From assembly GCF_003697815.1 (NCBI RefSeq), contig NZ_RDQG01000033.1, positions 1-36,686 of the forward strand: a stretch of DNA of 36,686 nt, written 5' to 3'. Position numbers and translations under genes: made by a program. Positions 869 through 10,765 of the stretch are shown piece by piece (position 1 is the first letter of the stretch; every line of letters begins with the position of its first letter). This stretch comes from Halalkalicoccus subterraneus (GTDB lineage: Archaea > Halobacteriota > Halobacteria > Halobacteriales > Halalkalicoccaceae). A model generated the notes under the pieces. It searched no databases. It was not told where the DNA came from and saw nothing but the letters and a program-made list of their open reading frames with translations.

Positions 869-1819
869 ATGGTAGAGAGAGATCACATCGCGCAGAGTAA
901 GGCGATCCATCGACGGACCGGTCGGACCTTCTACTACGCGACCCGGCTGTTGCCGGGTCGCGTCCGGGAGGCGACGTACGTCCTGTATGCGTTCTTTCGC
1001 GTCGCCGACGAGGTCGTCGACGACACCGACGGGACACCCCCGGAAGAACAGCGCCGCCGACTCGACTCGCTGCGCGAGCAGGCGCTCGGACGGGCCGACC
1101 CTGAGGGGCCCGTTCTCGAGGCGTTCCAGGCGATCAGGGAGCGCCACGACATCATTGACGACGACATTGAGGCCTTCCTCGACGCGATGGAGACCGACAT
1201 CGGGAAACGCCGGTACGAGACGTACGCGGAGTTAGAGGCGTACATGAACGGCTCCGCGGCGGCCGTCGGGCGGATGATGACCGCCGTGATGGACCCTGAT
1301 AACCCCGAGGACGCCCTGCCGCACGCGACGGCACTCGGGGAGGCGTTCCAGCTGACGAACTTCGTCCGGGACGTCCGCGAGGACGTGATCGAGCGCGACC
1401 GGATCTACCTACCCCAATCGACGCTTCGGGAGTACGACGTCACGAACGACCAGATCGAGCGCTTCGAGATGGACGGGAACGTCGAGCGCGCGGTCCGAAC
1501 CGAGCTCACGCGTGCGGAGTCGCTCTACCGCAAGGGGGTCACGGGCATCAAGTATCTCCCCGAGGACTGCCAGTTCCCCGTATTGCTCGCCGCGGTGCTG
1601 TACGCGGAGCACCACCGGCTGATCCGGGCCTGCGAGTACGACGTCCTGACGAACGAACCCGAACTGAGCACGGCCAAGAAACTCCGGCTCGTCGCCCGCG
1701 TGCGCTGGCACTGGCAGTGGAGCACGGACCCCGAGGCGGTCTTCTATCGGGCGAGTGCGGTACCGGGCCCGACGGTCCCGCGGACCGAGCGCCGACACGA
1801 CAGTCTCCCCACCCGGTAG
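869..1819 (+). CDS. crtB: Phytoene synthase
   Basis: Condenses two geranylgeranyl diphosphates head to head to phytoene, the first committed step of carotenoid synthesis. The 316-residue product is a normal length for the squalene/phytoene synthase family. The first aspartate-rich motif DEVVDD lies at residues 47-52, and the second (NFVRDVREDVIERD, then RIYLP) near residues 164-180; both bind Mg-diphosphate. The N-terminus (SKAIHRRTGRTFYYATRLLP) is typical of haloarchaeal CrtB. The start is an ATG with a TATA-like TAATAAT about 40 nt upstream, so a short leader of about 15-20 nt is likely. It converges with cruF, whose stop is 17 nt away. Squalene synthase is the alternative, but the carotenoid neighbours support CrtB. 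Confidence 0.93.
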   Translation: MVERDHIAQSKAIHRRTGRTFYYATRLLPGRVREATYVLYAFFRVADEVVDDTDGTPPEEQRRRLDSLREQALGRADPEGPVLEAFQAIRERHDIIDDDIEAFLDAMETDIGKRRYETYAELEAYMNGSAAAVGRMMTAVMDPDNPEDALPHATALGEAFQLTNFVRDVREDVIERDRIYLPQSTLREYDVTNDQIERFEMDGNVERAVRTELTRAESLYRKGVTGIKYLPEDCQFPVLLAAVLYAEHHRLIRACEYDVLTNEPELSTAKKLRLVARVRWHWQWSTDPEAVFYRASAVPGPTVPRTERRHDSLPTR

Positions 1820-1836: not shown

Positions 1837-2676
1837 TCAGAGCACGTCGAAGTCGAACCAATCGCTCGTGAGGAGGACGCCCCCGAGCGACGCAGCGACG
1901 GCGACCGGAACCCAATTGCCGAAGTACGCGTTGATCAGCCCCCACAGGAGCAGGAAGCTCACTAGGTCATCTAGGAAGAACCCGCACGTCTCCAGTCGCG
2001 CCAGCACCGCCTCGTGATCGAACGAGACCTGCAGGATCGCGGTCGCGACCGAGCCGCTCAGCAGCCAGCCGGCGTAGTTGATGGCCGGCACGCCGTAGTA
2101 CGCGCCGGGCGAATCCCACGCCCAGAAACCGAGCGCGACCGCGCCGGGATCGAGGAGCAGATCGAGCGTGAGTACGGTCCCGAGGGTGAGGACGAACCGG
2201 CGGCCGACGGTGGTCTCCCCCAAGAAGAGCGAGGCGAGCAGGTAGCTGTTCAGCAGGATGGGAAAGTAGAAGACGGGCAGGCCGAGCGGGACGAGCCCGG
2301 CGAGCATCGGTCCGAGTTCGATCCCGTAGGAGAACTCGCCGTAGGGCAGCCCAGTGAGGACGCCCGCGAGTTCGATCCCCCAGGTGAACAGCGCGAGCGC
2401 CGCGACCCCGCCGGTGGCCCGCCGGTCGAGCAGGGGAACGAGACCGGCGACCAGCGGCGAGACCATCACGAGGTTCGCGCCGATCAGCAGGTAGGGGTTC
2501 ATCGCGAGTTCGGCGGGAAGGACACCCTGTCTGCCGGCGATCAGCATGACCACACCGACCACGGGGAAGGTGACGGCGATGGTGAAGCGGTTGTCCTCGA
2601 CGATGCGTTCGAGCGTCGATTCGATCCGCCCGCGGGTCGGCCTCTCGACGGCGGCCTCACCCACGCGTCCGACCAC
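1837..2676 (-). CDS. cruF: Bisanhydrobacterioruberin hydratase (CruF)
   Basis: Integral membrane carotenoid hydratase. In characterised haloarchaea it adds water to the end groups of bisanhydrobacterioruberin to give bacterioruberin, the last pathway step. The 279-residue protein has about seven hydrophobic segments and the family signature WGIELAGVLTGLPYGEFSY near residues 98-117. Further conserved-looking blocks are FPILLNSY and LLDPGAVALGFWAWDSPGAYYGVP. The start taken is GTG at 2676, since the nearby ATG at 2686 is out of frame; a GTG at 2664 is a possible alternative. In most haloarchaea cruF directly follows lyeJ; here it is separated from lyeJ by two sulfatase-fold genes. No strong TATA element is visible. 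Confidence 0.9.
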   Translation of the reverse strand: MVGRVGEAAVERPTRGRIESTLERIVEDNRFTIAVTFPVVGVVMLIAGRQGVLPAELAMNPYLLIGANLVMVSPLVAGLVPLLDRRATGGVAALALFTWGIELAGVLTGLPYGEFSYGIELGPMLAGLVPLGLPVFYFPILLNSYLLASLFLGETTVGRRFVLTLGTVLTLDLLLDPGAVALGFWAWDSPGAYYGVPAINYAGWLLSGSVATAILQVSFDHEAVLARLETCGFFLDDLVSFLLLWGLINAYFGNWVPVAVAASLGGVLLTSDWFDFDVL

Positions 2677-2752
2677 CCGTCGTCATTACCGAGCGTTTGG
2701 ACGGCGGGCACTTAGCCCCGTTCGTTTCCCGGTCGAACCCGCAAGGACTGTC

Positions 2753-3694
2753 TCAGAGATAGCCAAAGCTCTTGAGGCGCTCGCGCACGGTGTCGTCGTC
2801 GAGTCCCTCGTCCGTGACGGGTCTGTCGGCCCGGATCGGGCGACGCGTGGCCCCCTCCTCGATCAGCCACGGGACCCTGACCAGTCCCCGGGAGCGAAGC
2901 CCACGATCGTGGCCGAACCCTCGGACCGGAACCGGCCACATCCGGTCGCCGATGAGGTTACCGTGGTCGGCGGTGACGACGCTTCTACCCGTGATCTCGG
3001 TTCGGCACTCCGCGACGAACGGGAGTACGACCTCGAGGTTCTCCTCGTAGGCTCGCCGGACCGCCCCGACGGAGAGCTCCTCGTCGCCGTCGCGCAGGCG
3101 CTCCCAGACGTTCGCCCCCGAGAGCCCGTCGTCGGGCGCGCCGCTCGCGTGGCCCCGGTGGGGGAGCGTGCGGCCGAACTCGCCGATGAAGGGGTAGTGG
3201 GGCTGCATGTAGTGGACGAGCAGGCGCTTTTCGGGGAACCGATCGGCGGCCTCGATCGCCGCCGCGGTCACCTCGCGGGGGTGGACCGTCTGGAGGTCGC
3301 CGTCCCAGGCATCGAGCAGCGATACCGTCGCGTGGAAGGTGTCCTCGGGCAGCATCGGAGCGAACGGGTTGGCCGTCACGTAGACCGTATCGTGATACCG
3401 CTCGCCGGAAAACGTCTCGGAGAGGAACTCCTCGCTGTGGCTCGCGACCGACTGGCGCGATTCGAGCGTACCCGAAAGCGTGGTTTGCCCCGCGAACGTG
3501 TCGTACCGACAGCCGTCGAGGATCACGAGCAGGTCCCAGTCCTCGGCCATGACGTCGGTTGCGCGCCGGCGCGGGAGGCGCGCGTGGATCGCCCGGTTGA
3601 GGTCGATCCCTCGACGGCGACACTCGTACCGGAGAAGCGTCGGATCGCGGATCGCCTTTCGAACGTGCCGGAGGGAGTATCTCGAGAGGGGCAT
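2753..3694 (-). CDS. Sulfatase/alkaline-phosphatase-fold protein, short form
   Basis: A 313-residue member of the alkaline phosphatase/arylsulfatase-like superfamily; the substrate is unknown. Visible core elements are LLVILDGCRYDTF near residue 55 (metal-binding Asp), a serine-rich SVASHSEEF stretch where the nucleophile should lie, HYMQPHYPF with metal-type histidines, VVTADHGNLIGDR with the Asp-His metal pair, and a later GFGH. There is no signal peptide or membrane segment. The ATG at 3694 (MPLSRYSLRH) is chosen because upstream sequence is shared with the divergent gene at 3797; a TATATC element lies about 40 nt upstream. Similar haloarchaeal proteins often occur near surface glycan genes, suggesting sulfo- or phospho-group handling. 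That role is inference. It does not resemble a carotenoid enzyme. Confidence 0.78.
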   Translation of the reverse strand: MPLSRYSLRHVRKAIRDPTLLRYECRRRGIDLNRAIHARLPRRRATDVMAEDWDLLVILDGCRYDTFAGQTTLSGTLESRQSVASHSEEFLSETFSGERYHDTVYVTANPFAPMLPEDTFHATVSLLDAWDGDLQTVHPREVTAAAIEAADRFPEKRLLVHYMQPHYPFIGEFGRTLPHRGHASGAPDDGLSGANVWERLRDGDEELSVGAVRRAYEENLEVVLPFVAECRTEITGRSVVTADHGNLIGDRMWPVPVRGFGHDRGLRSRGLVRVPWLIEEGATRRPIRADRPVTDEGLDDDTVRERLKSFGYL

Positions 3695-3796
3695 GTGGAG
3701 CGGATTCGACTCACGTTCGACGCCCGGACCGATATAGGTTGCCGGTCCCGCCTCACCTCCGCTCGATTCATTACGACGCGGCCAATACCGATCGGC

Positions 3797-5266
3797 ATGC
3801 CACCCAACGTGCTCCTCGTCGTGCTGGACAGCGTCCGCGCGAGAAACACGAGCCTTCACGGCTACGGGCGGGAAACGACGCCGTTTCTGGAGTCGTTCGC
3901 CGCGGAATCGACGATGTATACCGCCGCGCGCGCACCGGGAATGACCAGCCTGCCGAGCCACACGAGCGTCTTCACCGGGCTCGCGGTCGAGGAACACGGC
4001 GCCCACGACTCGATCCTGCACGGGATCGAGCCCGGCGTCACCGTCTGGGAGCGACTGTGTGAGGAGCGTGAGTACCGGACGGGAGTGTTCTCGTACAACA
4101 CCAACCTCGTCAGCGAGGGATCGCTTCGTGAGGCCTTCGAACACGTCGAACGGGGCAGCGACGGCCCGTTCGCCGACGGTCGTGACGTCAAGCAGTTCCA
4201 CGAGGCGACAGACGACGCCTACGTCGGCGACCCGCGCCAGTATCCGGCCTACCTCCGGTTCTGCCTGGAGAGCGACCGGCCGGCACATTCCCTCGCGAAC
4301 GGGGCGGTCACCAAGCTTCAGCGTCGGTTCACCTCTCCGCGGCTCGACCGGCTTCGCGACCCGGCGGCCGGCGAGTACGTCGACGCGCTGCTCGAGTGGA
4401 CCGAAAACGACGGGCCGTGGGCCGCGTGTTTGAACCTGATGGACGCCCACCACCCGTACTGTCCGAAACCGGAGCACGACCTGTGGGGCGGGACGGAGCT
4501 CCAGCGAAGACAGAGCGAGCTCTCACCTCACCCGTGGATGGTCCACGGCGACCGGGTTTCGACCGACGAGTGGGCCTCCTTCGAGGACCTCTACGACGGG
4601 GCGATCCGGCAGGCCGACGCCGCCGTCGGCAGGCTCGTCCGAGCGCTGAAACGCCGCGGGGAGTTCGAGGAGACGCTGGTGGTCGTCACGAGCGACCACG
4701 GCGAGGGATTCGGCGAACCCAGTCGCGTCCGGCCCGGCGTGCGGACCGTCGGACACGTCGCCGGGCTCCACGAGCACCTGCTTCACGTCCCGCTGCTCGT
4801 CTCGTACCCCGGACAGACCGACGGCGGAGTCGTCGAGGAGTTGGCGACGCTGGCGCGGTTCCCGTCCGTCGTCGAGGCGGCCCTCGAGGACTCCTGGCGG
4901 GGCGACGAGTTCGTCCCCGAGGGCCCGGTCGTCGCCTCGGGGTCGAACGTCGAGGACAAGCTGAAAAACACCGAACGGGCCGCGCGCTTCTGTGGCGACA
5001 CCGAGCGGTTTGCCGACGTCGTCAGGGCCGTCTACCGGCGCGAGGACGGGGAGACGTACAAGTACGTGACGTGGGGCGACGACGAGGCGACGGTCCACGT
5101 CGAGGACGTCCGGACGAGCGAGCGCGTCGAACACGGCGATCCAGCGGGGGAAGTCGAGCGGGCGTTCGGGGCGCTCTTGGACGCGGGGATCGTCGTCGAC
5201 CGCGGGGAGGGCCACGAGGTGAGCGCGTCGACCCGCCAGCACCTCGCGGAACTCGGATACGTATAG
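3797..5266 (+). CDS. Sulfatase-like hydrolase/transferase
   Basis: A 489-residue arylsulfatase-like protein of the alkaline phosphatase superfamily. It opens with NVLLVVLDSVRARN (metal Asp), then LHGYGRETTPFL, and the active-site segment TSLPSHTSVFTG near residues 52-63. Classical sulfatases have C-x-P-S-R there; this protein has S-L-P-S-H, so it cannot form formylglycine from cysteine and lacks the usual arginine. LMDAHHPY and VVTSDHGEGFGE (near residue 295) supply further metal ligands. No signal peptide is visible, so cytoplasmic action or transfer to an activated sugar is possible. The longer upstream reading frame only mirrors its neighbour; the ATG at 3797 gives the proper N-terminus. 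It is divergent from the shorter homologue and ends 4 nt before the lyeJ stop. Confidence 0.85.
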   Translation: MPPNVLLVVLDSVRARNTSLHGYGRETTPFLESFAAESTMYTAARAPGMTSLPSHTSVFTGLAVEEHGAHDSILHGIEPGVTVWERLCEEREYRTGVFSYNTNLVSEGSLREAFEHVERGSDGPFADGRDVKQFHEATDDAYVGDPRQYPAYLRFCLESDRPAHSLANGAVTKLQRRFTSPRLDRLRDPAAGEYVDALLEWTENDGPWAACLNLMDAHHPYCPKPEHDLWGGTELQRRQSELSPHPWMVHGDRVSTDEWASFEDLYDGAIRQADAAVGRLVRALKRRGEFEETLVVVTSDHGEGFGEPSRVRPGVRTVGHVAGLHEHLLHVPLLVSYPGQTDGGVVEELATLARFPSVVEAALEDSWRGDEFVPEGPVVASGSNVEDKLKNTERAARFCGDTERFADVVRAVYRREDGETYKYVTWGDDEATVHVEDVRTSERVEHGDPAGEVERAFGALLDAGIVVDRGEGHEVSASTRQHLAELGYV

Positions 5267-5270
5267 GCGG

Positions 5271-6101
5271 CTACGGGGAAACCAACAGCCACAGCCCGCC
5301 CACCGTGAACAGCGCACCGACGACCGTGTTGAGCGCGGGGAACCACCAGTAGGCTCTCGACACGTCGAGGTCGGTGAGCGCGACCGCGAGGGTGAAAACC
5401 GGATAGACGAGGAAGAGCGCGCCCAGCCGCGCGTCGAACGCGCCGAAACAGAGCGCCGCGAGCGTCCAGCACGCCACGCAGTAGGCGTAGGTGCGTGACT
5501 CGCCAAGCAGGGTCGCCGTCGTTTCGATTCCCGCCGCGCGGTCGGGCTCGATGTCGGGAATCGCGCTGAAGGTGTGCATCCCCATCGTCCAGAGCCAGCC
5601 GCCGGCGATGGCGAGGACGGGTGGCTGGCTTCCGGCGAGCGCGACGTACGCGGCCGCGCCCGGCGTGAAGTACAGCCCGTTCGAGACGGAATCGAGCAGG
5701 GGCGTCGTCTTGAACCGCGCGGGCGGGGCGCTGTAGGCCGCCCCGAGGAGCAAGAACGCGGCGAGCCACGGCCACGCGCCGGCGGGAAGCAGCGGGAAGA
5801 AGGTAAGCGGGACGACCGCACAGACGGTGACGGCGATCGGGACGGCTCGCTGGCCCTCGAAGCGCGCCTCGCGATCCTCCTTTTTCGGGTTTTCCCGATC
5901 GATCTCGCGGTCGTAGACGTCGTTGATCCCGTAGAGAAACACGTTCGCGGGCACGAGGAAGTAAACGAACAGCGCGAGGAGGGACGCCGAGAGCAGCTCC
6001 TCGGGCCTGTCCGCCCCGAAGACCGCTCCCACCAGGACGGGGCCGGCCAGATAGAGCCAGAAGCGGGGCCGGGAGAGTGCCAGCAGGTAGCGGACGGTCA
6101 C
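5271..6101 (-). CDS. lyeJ: Lycopene elongase (UbiA-family C5 prenyltransferase)
   Basis: Membrane prenyltransferase that adds dimethylallyl units to lycopene on the route to C50 bacterioruberin. The 276-residue protein has eight or nine hydrophobic helices and both UbiA aspartate motifs: NDVYDREIDREN near residues 60-71 and DIEPDRAAG near 180-188. The GTG start at 6101 is chosen because it overlaps the crtD stop by 4 nt (GTGA), indicating translational coupling. A longer in-frame version from 6158 would add 19 arginine-rich residues and is unlikely. UbiA homologues for ubiquinone or menaquinone are the alternative, but the partnership with crtD and cruF is diagnostic of the bacterioruberin pathway. 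Confidence 0.92.
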   Translation of the reverse strand: MTVRYLLALSRPRFWLYLAGPVLVGAVFGADRPEELLSASLLALFVYFLVPANVFLYGINDVYDREIDRENPKKEDREARFEGQRAVPIAVTVCAVVPLTFFPLLPAGAWPWLAAFLLLGAAYSAPPARFKTTPLLDSVSNGLYFTPGAAAYVALAGSQPPVLAIAGGWLWTMGMHTFSAIPDIEPDRAAGIETTATLLGESRTYAYCVACWTLAALCFGAFDARLGALFLVYPVFTLAVALTDLDVSRAYWWFPALNTVVGALFTVGGLWLLVSP

Positions 6102-7579
6102 TGGTTCGGGTAGTCCTCCGCGACGGCCTCGGCGGTGAGCTGGCCGCTGATCAGACACATCGGGACGCCGATCCCGGGCGTGGTGTACGATCCGGTGAAG
6201 TAGAGCCCGTCGACCTCCTTCGAGCGATGCGGCGGGCGGAACACGGCGGTCTGTTCCAAGGTGTGGGCGAGCCCCAGTGCCGTGCCCCGCATGCTGTTGT
6301 ACCGATCGGCGAAATCGTCGATCGTGAACGTCTCCTCGAAGACGATCCGGTCTCGGAGGTCAACGCCGGTGTTCTCCGCGATGTCGTCGAGAACGAGGTT
6401 TCGATAGCTCTCGCGGATCACGGGCCGGTCGTCCAGACCCGGTGCGACGGGCACGAGCGCGAAGAGGTTCGAGTGTCCCTCGGGAGCGACCGAGTCGTCG
6501 GTCTTCGAGGGGACACAGAGGTAGTAGGCGGGATCGTCGGGCCATTCCGGCTCGTCGAAGATCTCTTCGAAGTGTTCCTCCCAGTCGGTCGGAAGGACGA
6601 GCGTGTGATGAGCCAGCTCCGCTACGTCGCCCTCGACACCGAGATAGAGCAGGAACGCGGAGGGCGCGTAGGTTCGGGACTCCCAGTACTCCTCGCTATA
6701 CCCGCGCTTTTCCGGCGGCAGGAGGTCGAGTTCGGTGTGGGCGTAGTCGGCGTCCGAAACGACGAGGTCCGGGAGGAAAGTGTCGCGCGCTTCGACCTTG
6801 AACCCGCCCGCCCGCCCTTCGATCGCCTCGACCGGCTGGTCGGTGTAATAGGTGACCCCCAACTCCGTGCCGAGTTCGCTGATCCCGTCGACGACGCCGC
6901 CGAGCCCGCCTTCGGGGTAGTGGACGCCGAGGTTGAAGTCGACGTGACTCATCAGGTTGTAGAGCGCGGGCGTGTTGTTGGGCGAGCCCCCCAGAAAGAC
7001 GAGGGTGTACTGCATGATCTGCTGGAGCTTCGGGTGCTCGAAGTAGTCCTCGACGTGATCCTGCATCGAGCCGATCAGCGAGAGCCCGCGGGCGTTCTTC
7101 GCCACGTTCCAGTCGGCCCAATCCCTGAATCGAGGTCGGTCCTCGTAGACGAAATGCTCCATGCCGACCTCGTAGTTCAGTTCGCTCGTTTCGAGGTATC
7201 GCTCCAGGGCCTCGCCCGCACCCGATTCGTAGCTCTCGAAGACCTTCTTTGTTTCCTCGATGTCCGGCGAGACGTCGACCTCGTCCCCGTCCTTGAAGAA
7301 GATCCGATAATGGGGATCGAGCTGTTCGGTGGCGTAGTACTCATCGACCTCGCGCCCGAAATCGGCAAAGAAGCGCTCGAAGACGTCGGGCATCAGGTAC
7401 CACGACGGCCCCATGTCGAAGCGAAAGCCCTCAGCTTCGAGCCGTGAGGCGCGCCCGCCGAGCTGTTCGTTCTTCTCGACGACCTGCACGTCGGCACCGG
7501 CGTCAGCCAGGTAGCACGCGGTCGAGAGCCCGCCAAACCCGCTTCCGATCACGACGACCGACTGCTCCGACAACTCCAT
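6098..7579 (-). CDS. crtD: Carotenoid 3,4-desaturase (CrtD; phytoene-desaturase family)
   Basis: FAD-dependent carotenoid desaturase that, in the characterised haloarchaeal trio CrtD-LyeJ-CruF, introduces the 3,4 double bonds needed for bacterioruberin. The 493-residue protein begins with a dinucleotide-binding fold (VVVIGSGFGGLSTACYLADAG, residues ~8-28), followed by VVEKNEQLGGRASR and DMGPSWYLMPDVFERFF. It ends with the family's FAD-binding block YFTGSYTTPGIGVPMCLISG. The ATG at 7579 is supported by a TATAAA element at 7603-7608 (reverse strand), about 26 nt upstream, implying a leaderless transcript. An extension to 7771 is open but has non-haloarchaeal composition. Phytoene desaturase CrtI is a close paralogue, and a contribution to earlier desaturation cannot be excluded. 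Confidence 0.9.
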   Translation of the reverse strand: MELSEQSVVVIGSGFGGLSTACYLADAGADVQVVEKNEQLGGRASRLEAEGFRFDMGPSWYLMPDVFERFFADFGREVDEYYATEQLDPHYRIFFKDGDEVDVSPDIEETKKVFESYESGAGEALERYLETSELNYEVGMEHFVYEDRPRFRDWADWNVAKNARGLSLIGSMQDHVEDYFEHPKLQQIMQYTLVFLGGSPNNTPALYNLMSHVDFNLGVHYPEGGLGGVVDGISELGTELGVTYYTDQPVEAIEGRAGGFKVEARDTFLPDLVVSDADYAHTELDLLPPEKRGYSEEYWESRTYAPSAFLLYLGVEGDVAELAHHTLVLPTDWEEHFEEIFDEPEWPDDPAYYLCVPSKTDDSVAPEGHSNLFALVPVAPGLDDRPVIRESYRNLVLDDIAENTGVDLRDRIVFEETFTIDDFADRYNSMRGTALGLAHTLEQTAVFRPPHRSKEVDGLYFTGSYTTPGIGVPMCLISGQLTAEAVAEDYPNQ

Positions 7580-7602
7580 GTCGGTACTCGGGACGACGAC
7601 GG

Positions 7603-7608
7603 TATAAA
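7603..7608 (-). promoter_or_regulatory. TATA box of the crtD-lyeJ operon
   Basis: On the minus strand this reads TTTATA, centred about 26 nt before the crtD ATG. That is the haloarchaeal leaderless spacing, and it decides the crtD start. Confidence 0.65.
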
Positions 7609-7609
7609 T

Positions 7610-8025
7610 CCGGGTGACCCAACCCAGCGGACCGCCCGAGGGTACTCCAGTGGGCGAGGGAATCGTCCACGATAGCCGGTTCGTTGAACGGCCGTCCGTC
7701 GAACCGAACGGTGACCGTCCCGACTCCACAACCGAAAGCGAGTGAAACGATGTACGGTAAAGACATGACAAATAGTCATAAGTATTATATATCTGTGAGG
7801 TGTATGAATGATTGCTGACATCGTGTCAGTGTCGAGGTGGTGCCGGGTTGCCCGGCTCGGCACTACCCGTGTCTCTGATACCGCCGTCGGACGATCGCCG
7901 ACGGCGCCACATTTCCATTCAGTAAGCGGCCGGTTTTCGTACCGGCGAGCGGGAAGGGGTGTTGAACGGCTAACAGTCAAGATCCGAACGGCGGATCGGT
8001 ACACACGACAACGTTCGACGGGTAA
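7610..8025. other. Intergenic region between crtD and ppc with AT-rich core and hairpins
   Basis: About 415 nt with no convincing protein gene. It holds an AT-rich island at roughly 7766-7795 (with TATTATATAT) that could serve as a TATA element in either direction. A perfect 6-bp hairpin lies at 7815-7829 (CTGACA, loop TCG, TGTCAG). A perfect 9-bp inverted repeat with a 7-nt loop lies at 7882-7906 (CGCCGTCGG/CCGACGGCG). Open frames at 7503-7766 (minus) and 7808-8149 (plus) lack acidic haloarchaeal composition. A non-coding RNA or regulatory role is possible but not demonstrated. Confidence 0.4.
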
Positions 8026-8045
8026 GAGCCGTGGATCGACGGCTC
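8026..8045 (-). terminator. Possible terminator hairpin after ppc
   Basis: Perfect 7-bp inverted repeat GAGCCGT/ACGGCTC with a 6-nt loop, 11 nt beyond the ppc stop. On the minus strand it is followed by a short TTACCC. Archaeal termination relies mainly on T-runs, and none is strong here, so the assignment is tentative. Confidence 0.35.
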
Positions 8046-8056
8046 GGACGGACGTA

Positions 8057-10765
8057 CTAGCCCGTGTTCTTCATCCCGGCCGCGATCCCTTTGACCGTGA
8101 GCCGCAGCGTTCGCTCCTCGGCGTCGGTACGGTGCGTCTGACCCAATAGATGTGTCTGCAGCAGGTTCAGCGGGTCGACGTAGGGGTTGCGGCGTTTGAG
8201 ACTCTCTTCGAGCCAGTCGCGCCGGACCAGCGCGTCGCGACCCGCGATCTCGGTCACGAGGTCGGCGGCGCGCTCGTACTCGTCGATGAGCCGCGGGAAG
8301 AACGTTTCACGCAGCGAGGACTCGGCGAGGCCGGCGTACTCGGCGGCGATCTCGGGCTCGGTGCGCGCGAGCGCCAGCGCGGCGTTATCGAGCGTCGTCC
8401 TGAAGAATGGCCACTCGGCGTACATCTCCCGGAGGGTTTCGACGTCGCCACCGGAATCGAGGTAGGCGTCGATGCCCGAGGCGAGCGCGTACCACCCGGG
8501 GATGATGCAGCGCGACTGAGTCCAAGAGAACACCCACGGGATCGCCCGGAGGTCCTCGACGGATCGCTCCCCGCTTCTGGAAGCCGGCCTGGATCCGAGG
8601 TTGAGCTCCTCGATCACGGTGATGGGCGTGGCCTGCTCGAAGTAGCTGACGAACCCGTCGCTTTCGAGGAGGTCACGGTACTCCTCGCGGGCGGCGTCGG
8701 CCATCGTCCCCATCGCCTCGCTCCACTCCTCGGGGACCTCCTCTTCGGGCTCCTCGAGGGCGCGCTTTCGTGCCAGGACTTGCGCGTTGACCATCTGCTC
8801 GATGTTGCGCTCGGCGATCCGGGGATTGGCGTACTTCTCGGCGATCGACTCGCCCTGCTCGGTGAACTTCACCTGTCCCGAAACCGATTCGTTTGGCAGC
8901 GCAAGCAGCGCCCGGTTCATCGGGCCGCCACCCCGTGAGATCGACCCGCCGCGGCCGTGAAAGAGCCGCATCGTGACGTCGAAGTCGTCGGTGATCTCGG
9001 CGAGGCGGCGCTGGTTGTTGTACAGCGACCAGTTGGCGGCCAGAAAGCCGTTCTCCTTGTTCGAATCCGAGTAGCCGAGCATGATCTCCTGGGTGTCGCC
9101 CCGCGCGGCCAGCGCCCGGCTGTAGGCCTCGTTTTCGAACAGGGTACCCATGATCCGCCGGGCGCCCGACAGCGCGTACTCGGTCTCGAGCAGGGGGACG
9201 ATGTCGATCCCCGAGTGGTCGGGCAGGGCGATGACGCCGGCCTGCTCGGCGAGGAAGAGCACTTCCAGCACGTGGCTCGGCTCCTCGGTCATCGAGATGG
9301 CGTAGGTATCGATCGCGTCGTCGCCGTACTCGGTCTGCCAGTCGGAAAGCCGGGCGAACAGCTCCAGTACCGTCCGGGCGGTCTCCGAGAGGTCGGCCTC
9401 CTCGTCACGATAGAGCGTCTCGGGGTCGATCACCGACTCGTCCTGGAGGACGGCCTCGGTGAGCGTCTCGACGCGTTCGTCCTCCGAGAGCGCACGGTAG
9501 TCGATCTCCTCGAGGGCGAGGGCCTCGGCGACGGCCTCGGTGTGGTTCGCCTGGTGGTCGCGCAGGTCGAGGCTCGCAAGCGAGAAGCCGAAGGTGTCGA
9601 CCTGCCGTCGGAGGGGATCGACGTGGGCGGAGACGACGCTGTCCGCGCCGTTTCGTCGGGCACTTTCCGCGAGCACGTCCAGGTCGGCACGGAACCCGGC
9701 GACGTCCTCGTAGCCGCCGGGGCGGACGTCGTCGATCCGGTTGAGCCGCTCACGCATCAGCTTGAGCTTCTGACGGTAGGGCTCGCGGGGATAGCGGTCC
9801 TCGGTACCCCGGGCGACCTCGGGCAGGCGCTCGCGGTCGGCCGACAGCGACTTCTCGAACTCGGGGCCGACGTCGATCCGGCCCCCGTCCTGGCTCAGAA
9901 CGCCCGAGAGTCGCTTGAGCGCGTCGCGGTAGCGCTCGAGGACGACCGTCCGCTGGCGTTCCAAGGTCTCGGCGGTCACTTCGGGGGTAACGTAGGGGTT
10001 GCCGTCCCGGTCGGAGCCGGCCCACGAGCGGAACTCGAAGAGTTTGGGCACGTCGATGTCGTGGCCGGCCTCCTCGAGTGCCTCCTCGAACTCGTCGTAG
10101 ACCTCGCCGACGACGTCGAACAGCGTGTTTTCGAGGTACCACTGGACGTTGATCGCCTCGTCGGTCGGTTCGGGCCGGCGGTTCCTGACCTGTGGGGTCT
10201 GCCAGAGGCTGACGACCTCGCTTTCGATGTTCCGCTTGACGTGGTCGTGTTCCTTGTCGGTCAGTGCACGTTCGTCGAGGGTCTCGAGGTCGACCGCGAC
10301 GCTCCGGAGCTTGGATTTGACCGTCTTCCGACGGGCTTCGGTCGGGTGGGCCGTGAAGGTCGGTTCGATCAACACGTCCTCGAGGACGCGCTTTGCCGTC
10401 CGCTCGTCGACGTCGGAAAGCGCCTCCGCGGCGACATCGAGGCTGTCGTCGAGCGCGCGCTCCTGGGATGCCTGGCGAATCGCGCGGACCCGCTCGCGCT
10501 CCTCGGCGAGGTTGATCAGCTCGAAGTAGGTGGTAAAGCCCCGTGCGACGATGCTTTCGCGGTCGGGTCGGAGCCGGTCGAGGATCTGGTGGACTCCCTG
10601 TCTCGATGCGGCCTCGCCGCCGCGGTAGGCGATCGAGGCGGTTCTGAGCGTTTCGACGGTTTCGAAGTCGTTCCGGGAGGCCTGCGCGCGGATCGTATCG
10701 CCCACGAGCGCGCCCAGCTCCCGAACGTCCTGATTGACGGTTCGATTGTGCAACTCGTCGTCCAT
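8057..10765 (-). CDS. ppc: Phosphoenolpyruvate carboxylase
   Basis: Carboxylates phosphoenolpyruvate with bicarbonate to oxaloacetate, an anaplerotic step, in the cytosol. The 902-residue length fits the large bacterial-type enzyme rather than the ~500-residue archaeal-type PpcA. Catalytic and signature blocks are all present: TFTAHPTEARRKT near residue 136 (catalytic His), SWAGSDRDGNPYVTP near 248, MLGYSDSNKENGF and LFHGRGGSISRGGGP in the second half, AIPWVFSWTQSR, and the terminal MKNTG. The ATG at 10765 is preferred over a GTG at 10780 because TAAAAC (10791-10796, TTTTA on the reverse strand) lies about 28 nt upstream. A large open frame on the opposite strand is only its shadow. Confidence 0.97.
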   Translation of the reverse strand: MDDELHNRTVNQDVRELGALVGDTIRAQASRNDFETVETLRTASIAYRGGEAASRQGVHQILDRLRPDRESIVARGFTTYFELINLAEERERVRAIRQASQERALDDSLDVAAEALSDVDERTAKRVLEDVLIEPTFTAHPTEARRKTVKSKLRSVAVDLETLDERALTDKEHDHVKRNIESEVVSLWQTPQVRNRRPEPTDEAINVQWYLENTLFDVVGEVYDEFEEALEEAGHDIDVPKLFEFRSWAGSDRDGNPYVTPEVTAETLERQRTVVLERYRDALKRLSGVLSQDGGRIDVGPEFEKSLSADRERLPEVARGTEDRYPREPYRQKLKLMRERLNRIDDVRPGGYEDVAGFRADLDVLAESARRNGADSVVSAHVDPLRRQVDTFGFSLASLDLRDHQANHTEAVAEALALEEIDYRALSEDERVETLTEAVLQDESVIDPETLYRDEEADLSETARTVLELFARLSDWQTEYGDDAIDTYAISMTEEPSHVLEVLFLAEQAGVIALPDHSGIDIVPLLETEYALSGARRIMGTLFENEAYSRALAARGDTQEIMLGYSDSNKENGFLAANWSLYNNQRRLAEITDDFDVTMRLFHGRGGSISRGGGPMNRALLALPNESVSGQVKFTEQGESIAEKYANPRIAERNIEQMVNAQVLARKRALEEPEEEVPEEWSEAMGTMADAAREEYRDLLESDGFVSYFEQATPITVIEELNLGSRPASRSGERSVEDLRAIPWVFSWTQSRCIIPGWYALASGIDAYLDSGGDVETLREMYAEWPFFRTTLDNAALALARTEPEIAAEYAGLAESSLRETFFPRLIDEYERAADLVTEIAGRDALVRRDWLEESLKRRNPYVDPLNLLQTHLLGQTHRTDAEERTLRLTVKGIAAGMKNTG

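Follow-up and report, generated by a model that had tools for sequence, protein, structure and literature searches.

A candidate glycan-sulfating gene pair between lyeJ and cruF in the carotenoid cluster of one Halalkalicoccus genome

The bacterioruberin genes crtD, lyeJ and cruF are normally consecutive in haloarchaea. In the stretch of DNA analysed here (36,686 nt, contig 33 of a 3.6-Mb draft genome of the genus Halalkalicoccus; hereafter the window), the flanking genes are ordinary members of this cluster, but lyeJ and cruF are split by two genes on opposite strands, which we call A and B, so that the order reads crtB(+), cruF(-), A(-), B(+), lyeJ(-), crtD(-) and ppc(-). What do A and B do, and does their position inside a pigment cluster bear on the answer? 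An earlier note on this DNA had left the choice between an insertion and a linked function, for which it suggested that a surface glycan, or the hydroxyl group of a carotenoid or lipid, might be modified. The answer that we favour, with moderate confidence, is that A and B form a glycan-sulfating pair of the Agl30 and Agl31 families, inserted at a permissive lyeJ-cruF junction in one Halalkalicoccus lineage, that of the window's genome alone. A and B would be alkaline-phosphatase-fold enzymes with a Ser/Thr nucleophile, from the families of the adjacently encoded Agl30 and Agl31 of Halobacterium salinarum. They are probably cytoplasmic and would most likely transfer sulfate instead of removing it. 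Their acceptors may be sugars of a glycan that is lipid-linked or belongs to the S-layer, perhaps a different sugar for each enzyme.

Gene A (2753–3694, minus strand) encodes a protein of 313 residues, and gene B (3797–5266, plus strand) one of 489 residues. The two start codons are separated by 102 nt (3695–3796), in line with the shared region of about 100 nt noted before, and this segment is predicted to hold both promoters. B matches PF00884 (E 1e-28), and A has no match in Pfam or NCBIfam at E 0.1. The profiles of the two proteins nevertheless align with an hhalign probability of 97. An AlphaFold model of A, built with 20 relatives from viral contigs, reached a mean pLDDT of 77 and a pTM of 0.78; a single-sequence fold (pLDDT 33) was not used. 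Because of the profile comparison with B and the structural matches of this model, an alkaline-phosphatase-superfamily fold is supported for A as a predicted structure. Coordinates, profiles and model thus agree with the earlier description of two divergent genes of this superfamily separating lyeJ from cruF.

Both proteins retain candidate metal ligands and a putative Ser/Thr nucleophile, and the claim that both keep metal-ligand motifs holds. When A is aligned with 34 relatives, the residues D60, R63, D65, H161, Q164, H166, D243, H244 and H262 do not vary. Position 87, occupied in A by the putative nucleophile S87, is Ser or Thr in 35/35 rows. The candidate metal ligands among these (D60, D243, H244 and H262) are kept in 35/35 rows and likewise in 21/21 rows when A is aligned with its 20 viral-contig relatives. 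In B and 31 relatives the invariant residues are D11, S51, H55, S57, H218, D300, H301, H320 and H330, of which D11, D300, H301 and H320 are the candidate metal ligands (32/32 rows) and S51 is the putative nucleophile.

The viral relatives of A come from twenty public viral contigs (L279–L298), each encoding an A-like single-domain protein of the alkaline-phosphatase fold that keeps D60, R63, D65, H161, H166, D243, H244 and H262 and carries Thr at position 87. They may be virus-encoded transferases that modify glycans.

The B profile aligns over positions 2–302 with one of the PF00884 sulfatases and phosphonate monoester hydrolases (4upi, E 3e-25; 4upk is another example of these enzymes), with D11, D300 and H301 kept. 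The model of A in turn matches the sulfatase 6hhm (Z 15.6, rmsd 3.5, 204 residues), within 1 Z of its best match. These matches, together with the PF00884 assignment itself, would fit A and B as hydrolases, with sulfatase or phosphoesterase activity that removes sulfate or phosphate groups from glycans or nutrients. However, the nucleophile site of B reads S51-L-P-S-H55, with S51 and H55 present in 32/32 rows, and departs from the formylglycine motif, C/S-x-P/A-x-R. Because a histidine at position 55 stands for the arginine of that motif, B is probably not a formylglycine-dependent enzyme of the sulfatase type, and unlike the PF00884 sulfatases and phosphonate monoester hydrolases it would use a serine at the nucleophile position. 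Neither A nor B shows a hydrophobic N-terminal segment by hydropathy, which would be unusual for scavenging enzymes, and the nearest characterised adjacent pair transfers sulfate, according to PMC11980604. We consider a hydrolytic role for the pair unlikely.

Phosphoethanolamine transferases head the structural matches of the A model, with 5fgn first (Z 16.5, rmsd 2.9, 199 residues), and S87 opens a helix (residues 87–94), as expected of a nucleophile. A therefore shares its predicted fold with the catalytic domains of EptA, EptC and MCR, presumably along with their Thr/Ser type of nucleophile, and the pair could by this token transfer phosphate-type head groups such as phosphoethanolamine to glycans or archaeal lipids. 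Such a common fold shows no function, however, and the sulfatase match is effectively tied with that of 5fgn. Identity of A to the EptA/EptC/MCR domains is 12–16%, neither A nor B shows a membrane domain, different substrates are expected, and the relatives of known function sulfate. We regard head-group transfer as improbable, more so than hydrolysis.

The reading of A and B as sulfate-transferring enzymes draws on the comparison with Agl30 and Agl31. According to PMC11980604, two Hbt. salinarum proteins, Agl30 (VNG1056C, a membrane protein outside any InterPro family, with a predicted membrane segment at residues 21–39) and Agl31 (VNG1057C, soluble, of the arylsulfatase family), add sulfate to iduronic acid and to the terminal glucuronic acid of an N-linked tetrasaccharide, as judged from deletion strains and from their expression in Haloferax volcanii; three such genes are named there. 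Passages of PMC13308652 place related aglB-anchored clusters in other haloarchaea, without mention of Agl30. Of eight papers listed in one literature search, only PMC11980604 contains the names Agl30 and Agl31, and in the titles, counts and abstract openings covered we found no report of the window's pair or of its junction.

One genome in our collection (G068) was taken as Hbt. salinarum, its bacteriorhodopsin being 100% identical to the query over residues 3–262. Its contig 17 carries three genes of the alkaline phosphatase superfamily among genes that by eye look like glycosyltransferases: an Agl31-like gene (459 residues) is directly followed by an Agl30-like gene (326 residues, hydrophobic from residue 23), and the third lies two genes away. 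A aligns with the Agl30-like protein at 30% identity over 315 columns (E 7e-21 for a database size of 1e7; 152 bits with the A profile), and B with the Agl31-like protein at 28% over 342 columns (E 8e-18 for the same size; 133 bits with the B profile). The active-site positions checked are common to A and the Agl30-like protein in 12/12 cases and to B and the Agl31-like protein in 12/13. The window repeats the anatomy of Agl30 and Agl31, in which a protein of about 320 residues with no or a sub-threshold Pfam match is encoded next to a PF00884 protein of 459–489 residues, both of them homologous members of the alkaline phosphatase superfamily with active-site residues in common at all or nearly all positions checked. 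It differs from them in that the window pair is divergent (against a tandem pair in L276) and lies among carotenoid genes, outside any aglB-anchored N-glycosylation cluster.

The neighbourhoods of relatives elsewhere point to glycan chemistry. At E 1e-45, B has relatives in 105/392 and A in 224/392 sampled genomes of the order, counts for which only the best 4 or 5 candidates per genome were scored. Among 117 proteins neighbouring A relatives we counted 17 of the Polysacc_synt (flippase) family, 15 Glycos_transf_1 and 13 Glycos_transf_2, and among 109 neighbouring B relatives 24 Glycos_transf_2, 11 Polysacc_synt and 8 Glycos_transf_1. These sets comprise 117 of 118 and 109 of 110 proteins (L069:1-495 and L064:1-2640 left out), restricted to 150–899 residues and to proteins that do not overlap an A- or B-like open reading frame (ORF), which excludes proteins the size of AglB; several of the loci come from related genomes, and the neighbours are accordingly not independent. 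In a control of 102 proteins flanking carotenoid loci, none of the three glycosylation families was among the 25 most frequent of 111 families, below which single glycosyltransferases could be hidden.

A-like and B-like ORFs occur together in 17/40 fetched loci (L210–L249; in L241 the A gene is split in two pieces), a set in which L224–L226 were fetched because both genes had been seen nearby and L218, a top A hit, had also been seen as a pair. One of these pairs is divergent, as in the window (L224, B at 6378–7826 on the minus strand and A at 7902–8855 on the plus strand), and in L249 the genes for A, B, a GT2-like protein (by eye) and AglB (STT3, AglB_core) are consecutive. Within the family Halalkalicoccaceae, a PF00884 gene lies within 3 kb of 10/29 A-family genes, against about 0.46 expected under uniform placement; six of these ten look like one genus-wide tandem pair by spacing, orientation and score, and are not independent. 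The 29 genes derive from 38 rows: five fragment pairs were merged, and four rows, namely three weak ones and a fragment of 58 residues, were set aside. Of 75 PF00884 rows 73 were used, the 2 omitted being A genes themselves. On plasmids, where 3 of 54 matched records were examined, a flippase or a glycosyltransferase is annotated close to each of two A relatives; the neighbourhood of a B relative (38% identity) has no such annotation in its gene table, which is incomplete, and speaks against a universal rule.

The genome of the window also holds a closer relative of Agl30 (40% identity), on contig 6, at 1.4 kb from a PF00884 gene with one called ORF between them (L266). This closer relative and the tandem pair on contig 6 suggest that the window's A and B are probably a paralogous pair with an acceptor of their own. 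The tandem PF00884 and A-like pair at L265:4427-7171 (contig 6 of the window's genome, G000) is distinct from the window pair; pairs of similar spacing are also found in G001, G002, G003, G004 and G005, and the genes that follow the L265 pair look by eye like glycosyltransferases.

Several observations weigh against assigning glycan sulfation to A and B. According to PMC11980604, N-glycan sulfation stayed as in the parent when the third gene of this kind, VNG1063H, was deleted, and the double deletion retained basal sulfation. Our G068 genes were matched to VNG1056C and VNG1057C by anatomy and not by record, and no AglB was seen among the ORFs of that 18-kb contig. The identity of 28–30% is low enough that the substrate, and even the reaction, may differ; the closer Agl30 relative on contig 6 counts on the same side, as does H320 of B, which aligns with a valine in the Agl31-like protein, maybe through an alignment shift. 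Unlike Agl30, A has no N-terminal membrane segment: its highest 19-residue mean hydropathy is 0.85, at residue 222, versus 1.36 at residue 23 for the Agl30-like protein. True hydrolases and phosphotransferases are also found among PF00884 relatives, and the phosphoethanolamine transferases that head the structural matches of A, tied with sulfatases, tell in the same direction. In the family 19/29 A-family genes lack a PF00884 neighbour within 3 kb, no glycosylation gene adjoins the pair in the window, and the comparison within the genus covers only six other Halalkalicoccus genomes.

Whether the pair belongs to the carotenoid cluster was addressed by a survey of the lyeJ-cruF junction in the best 80 of 278 lyeJ relatives in our genome collection. 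Both genes were present in 76 loci outside the family; of the remaining four, L104 and L151 had no cruF match, and L072 and L073 are from Halalkalicoccus. The gap between lyeJ and cruF was -20 to 221 nt (median 47.5) in 76/76 of the loci outside the family, which bears out the statement that these genes are normally consecutive. Within Halalkalicoccaceae it ranges from 206 to 9984 nt. No A or B match at E 1e-10 was found in any of the 80 loci, and the pair was absent from the junction in all six other Halalkalicoccus genomes and in both sister-genus genomes with a readable junction. Among the genomes compared it occupies this junction only in that of the window, and no orthologue of A or B was found at the junction in the genus. 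A role in bacterioruberin biosynthesis was rejected on the 0/80 and 0/6 counts.

Most family genomes carry different content at this junction. It is a 206-nt gap with no obvious gene in G004, a 68-residue ORF in G003, a 72-residue zf-FCS ORF in G005 and an alpha/beta hydrolase gene in G002 and G006, on opposite strands in the two genomes. In the sister genus, G007 has genes for a ThiS-family protein and an AI-2E transporter, and G009 a hydrolase gene and a small ORF that by eye resembles the ThiS-family protein of G007. In G001 (L054:4849-14832) about 10 kb intervene, and the ORFs there include those for a metal P-type ATPase, a Fic protein and a DDE transposase.

A link to carotenoids, in which the pair would sulfate or otherwise modify bacterioruberin, its glycosides or membrane glycolipids, could appeal to the position inside the cluster and to A, which lies on the same strand as cruF and ends 76 nt upstream of the cruF ORF, so that co-transcription is possible. 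However, the carotenoid cluster of every other genome examined is without the pair, the relatives occupy glycosylation clusters, cruF retains a promoter-like block of its own, and unrelated cargo occupies the same junction in relatives. A carotenoid link is in our view very improbable. Slightly more doubtful still is the notion of a surface-glycan sulfation cassette recruited to the cluster, with A co-transcribed with cruF, and now sulfating bacterioruberin, glycosylated bacterioruberin or a membrane glycolipid. Of the options in the earlier note, insertion is favoured by the one-genome distribution and surface-glycan chemistry by the relatives; the carotenoid option fails by the test proposed with it, the pair being confined to one genome and its relatives lying beside glycosylation genes. 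The stops of B (5266) and of the convergent lyeJ ORF (5271) are indeed 4 nt apart, a packing that had been read as a sign of a stable arrangement, but six congeners lack the pair at this junction and the argument fails.

The lyeJ-cruF junction does not appear to be a special hotspot, a notion weakened by other junctions of the same stretch. Among five relatives the crtD-ppc junction (window 7580–8056) varies from 120 to 6183 nt and the g13804-g15106 junction from 3696 to 7656 nt, while aceA-crtB (74–91 nt), crtB-cruF (1–102 nt) and lyeJ-crtD (-4 to 2 nt) are steady. Because other junctions vary too, the lyeJ-cruF junction resembles any other boundary that separates transcription units in the genus.

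No exact direct or inverted repeats of at least 8 nt were found between 2641–2790 and 5201–5330, and the GC content of A and B (0.687 and 0.690) and their GC3 (0.873 and 0.882) fall inside the range of nine other genes compared; a very recent arrival of the pair is not indicated by its base composition. We rejected a fresh insertion with mobile-element scars on these two observations. In FastTree phylogenies the partners of B are five B genes from another family (L230–L234, support 1.0), and A has no well-supported close partner, its three innermost clades (support 0.49–0.65) being without the L230–L234 loci. No close relatives elsewhere that would show A and B travelling together as a unit were found in these trees.

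The permissiveness of the junction would be explained by the region directly upstream of cruF. In 9/9 readable family genomes this region carries TAAGT and, about 28 nt later, a conserved ATGA, and the window retains the block between A and cruF (2694–2730, minus strand, GAAACGAACGGGGCTAAGTG...). We take it to resemble a promoter of the archaeal BRE/TATA type, and infer from the sequence that it acts as one. With its own promoter immediately upstream, cruF would not be cut off by inserts at the junction, and the junction may tolerate inserts in Halalkalicoccaceae for this reason.

At window positions 2664–2686, and at the same place in eight relatives, a conserved ATG upstream of cruF stands about 28 nt past the TATA-like element. 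In all nine family genomes it opens, by eye, a very short frame that ends at or just inside the cruF start; one possibility is a leaderless mini-ORF with coupling to cruF, the other just the context of the transcription start. Identity to the window's cruF falls from 71–82% within the family to 45–58% among the other haloarchaea compared, more steeply than for lyeJ or crtD, and cruF of Halalkalicoccaceae may have a separate history.

The remaining genes of the cluster are unexceptional. The cruF gene (1837–2676, minus strand, with a possible alternative GTG start at 2664) encodes a bisanhydrobacterioruberin hydratase (NF041333 CruF_Halo, 351 bits) and is convergent with a crtB-type phytoene synthase gene (869–1819, plus strand). 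The lyeJ-type UbiA prenyltransferase gene (5271–6101, minus strand; UbiA family, NF009516/PRK12875, 444 bits) lies in an ORF that extends to 6158; if it starts at 6101, it overlaps by 4 nt the stop of crtD (6098–7579, minus strand), a bifunctional phytoene desaturase-3,4-desaturase gene (NF058655 CrtID, 764 bits). The pair is flanked by carotenoid genes, ppc and an isocitrate-lyase-like gene, the last recognised by eye.

The comparison offers a testable name, Agl30/Agl31-like glycan sulfotransferases, for many haloarchaeal proteins now called sulfatase or hypothetical that recur near each other and near glycosyltransferases. It also carries a caution, as a location among pigment genes does not establish a role in pigmentation. 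If the block upstream of cruF works as a promoter, cruF would be independent of lyeJ transcription in Halalkalicoccaceae, and in this lineage, where cruF appears to own its promoter, a compact operon junction would have become a settling place for other genes.

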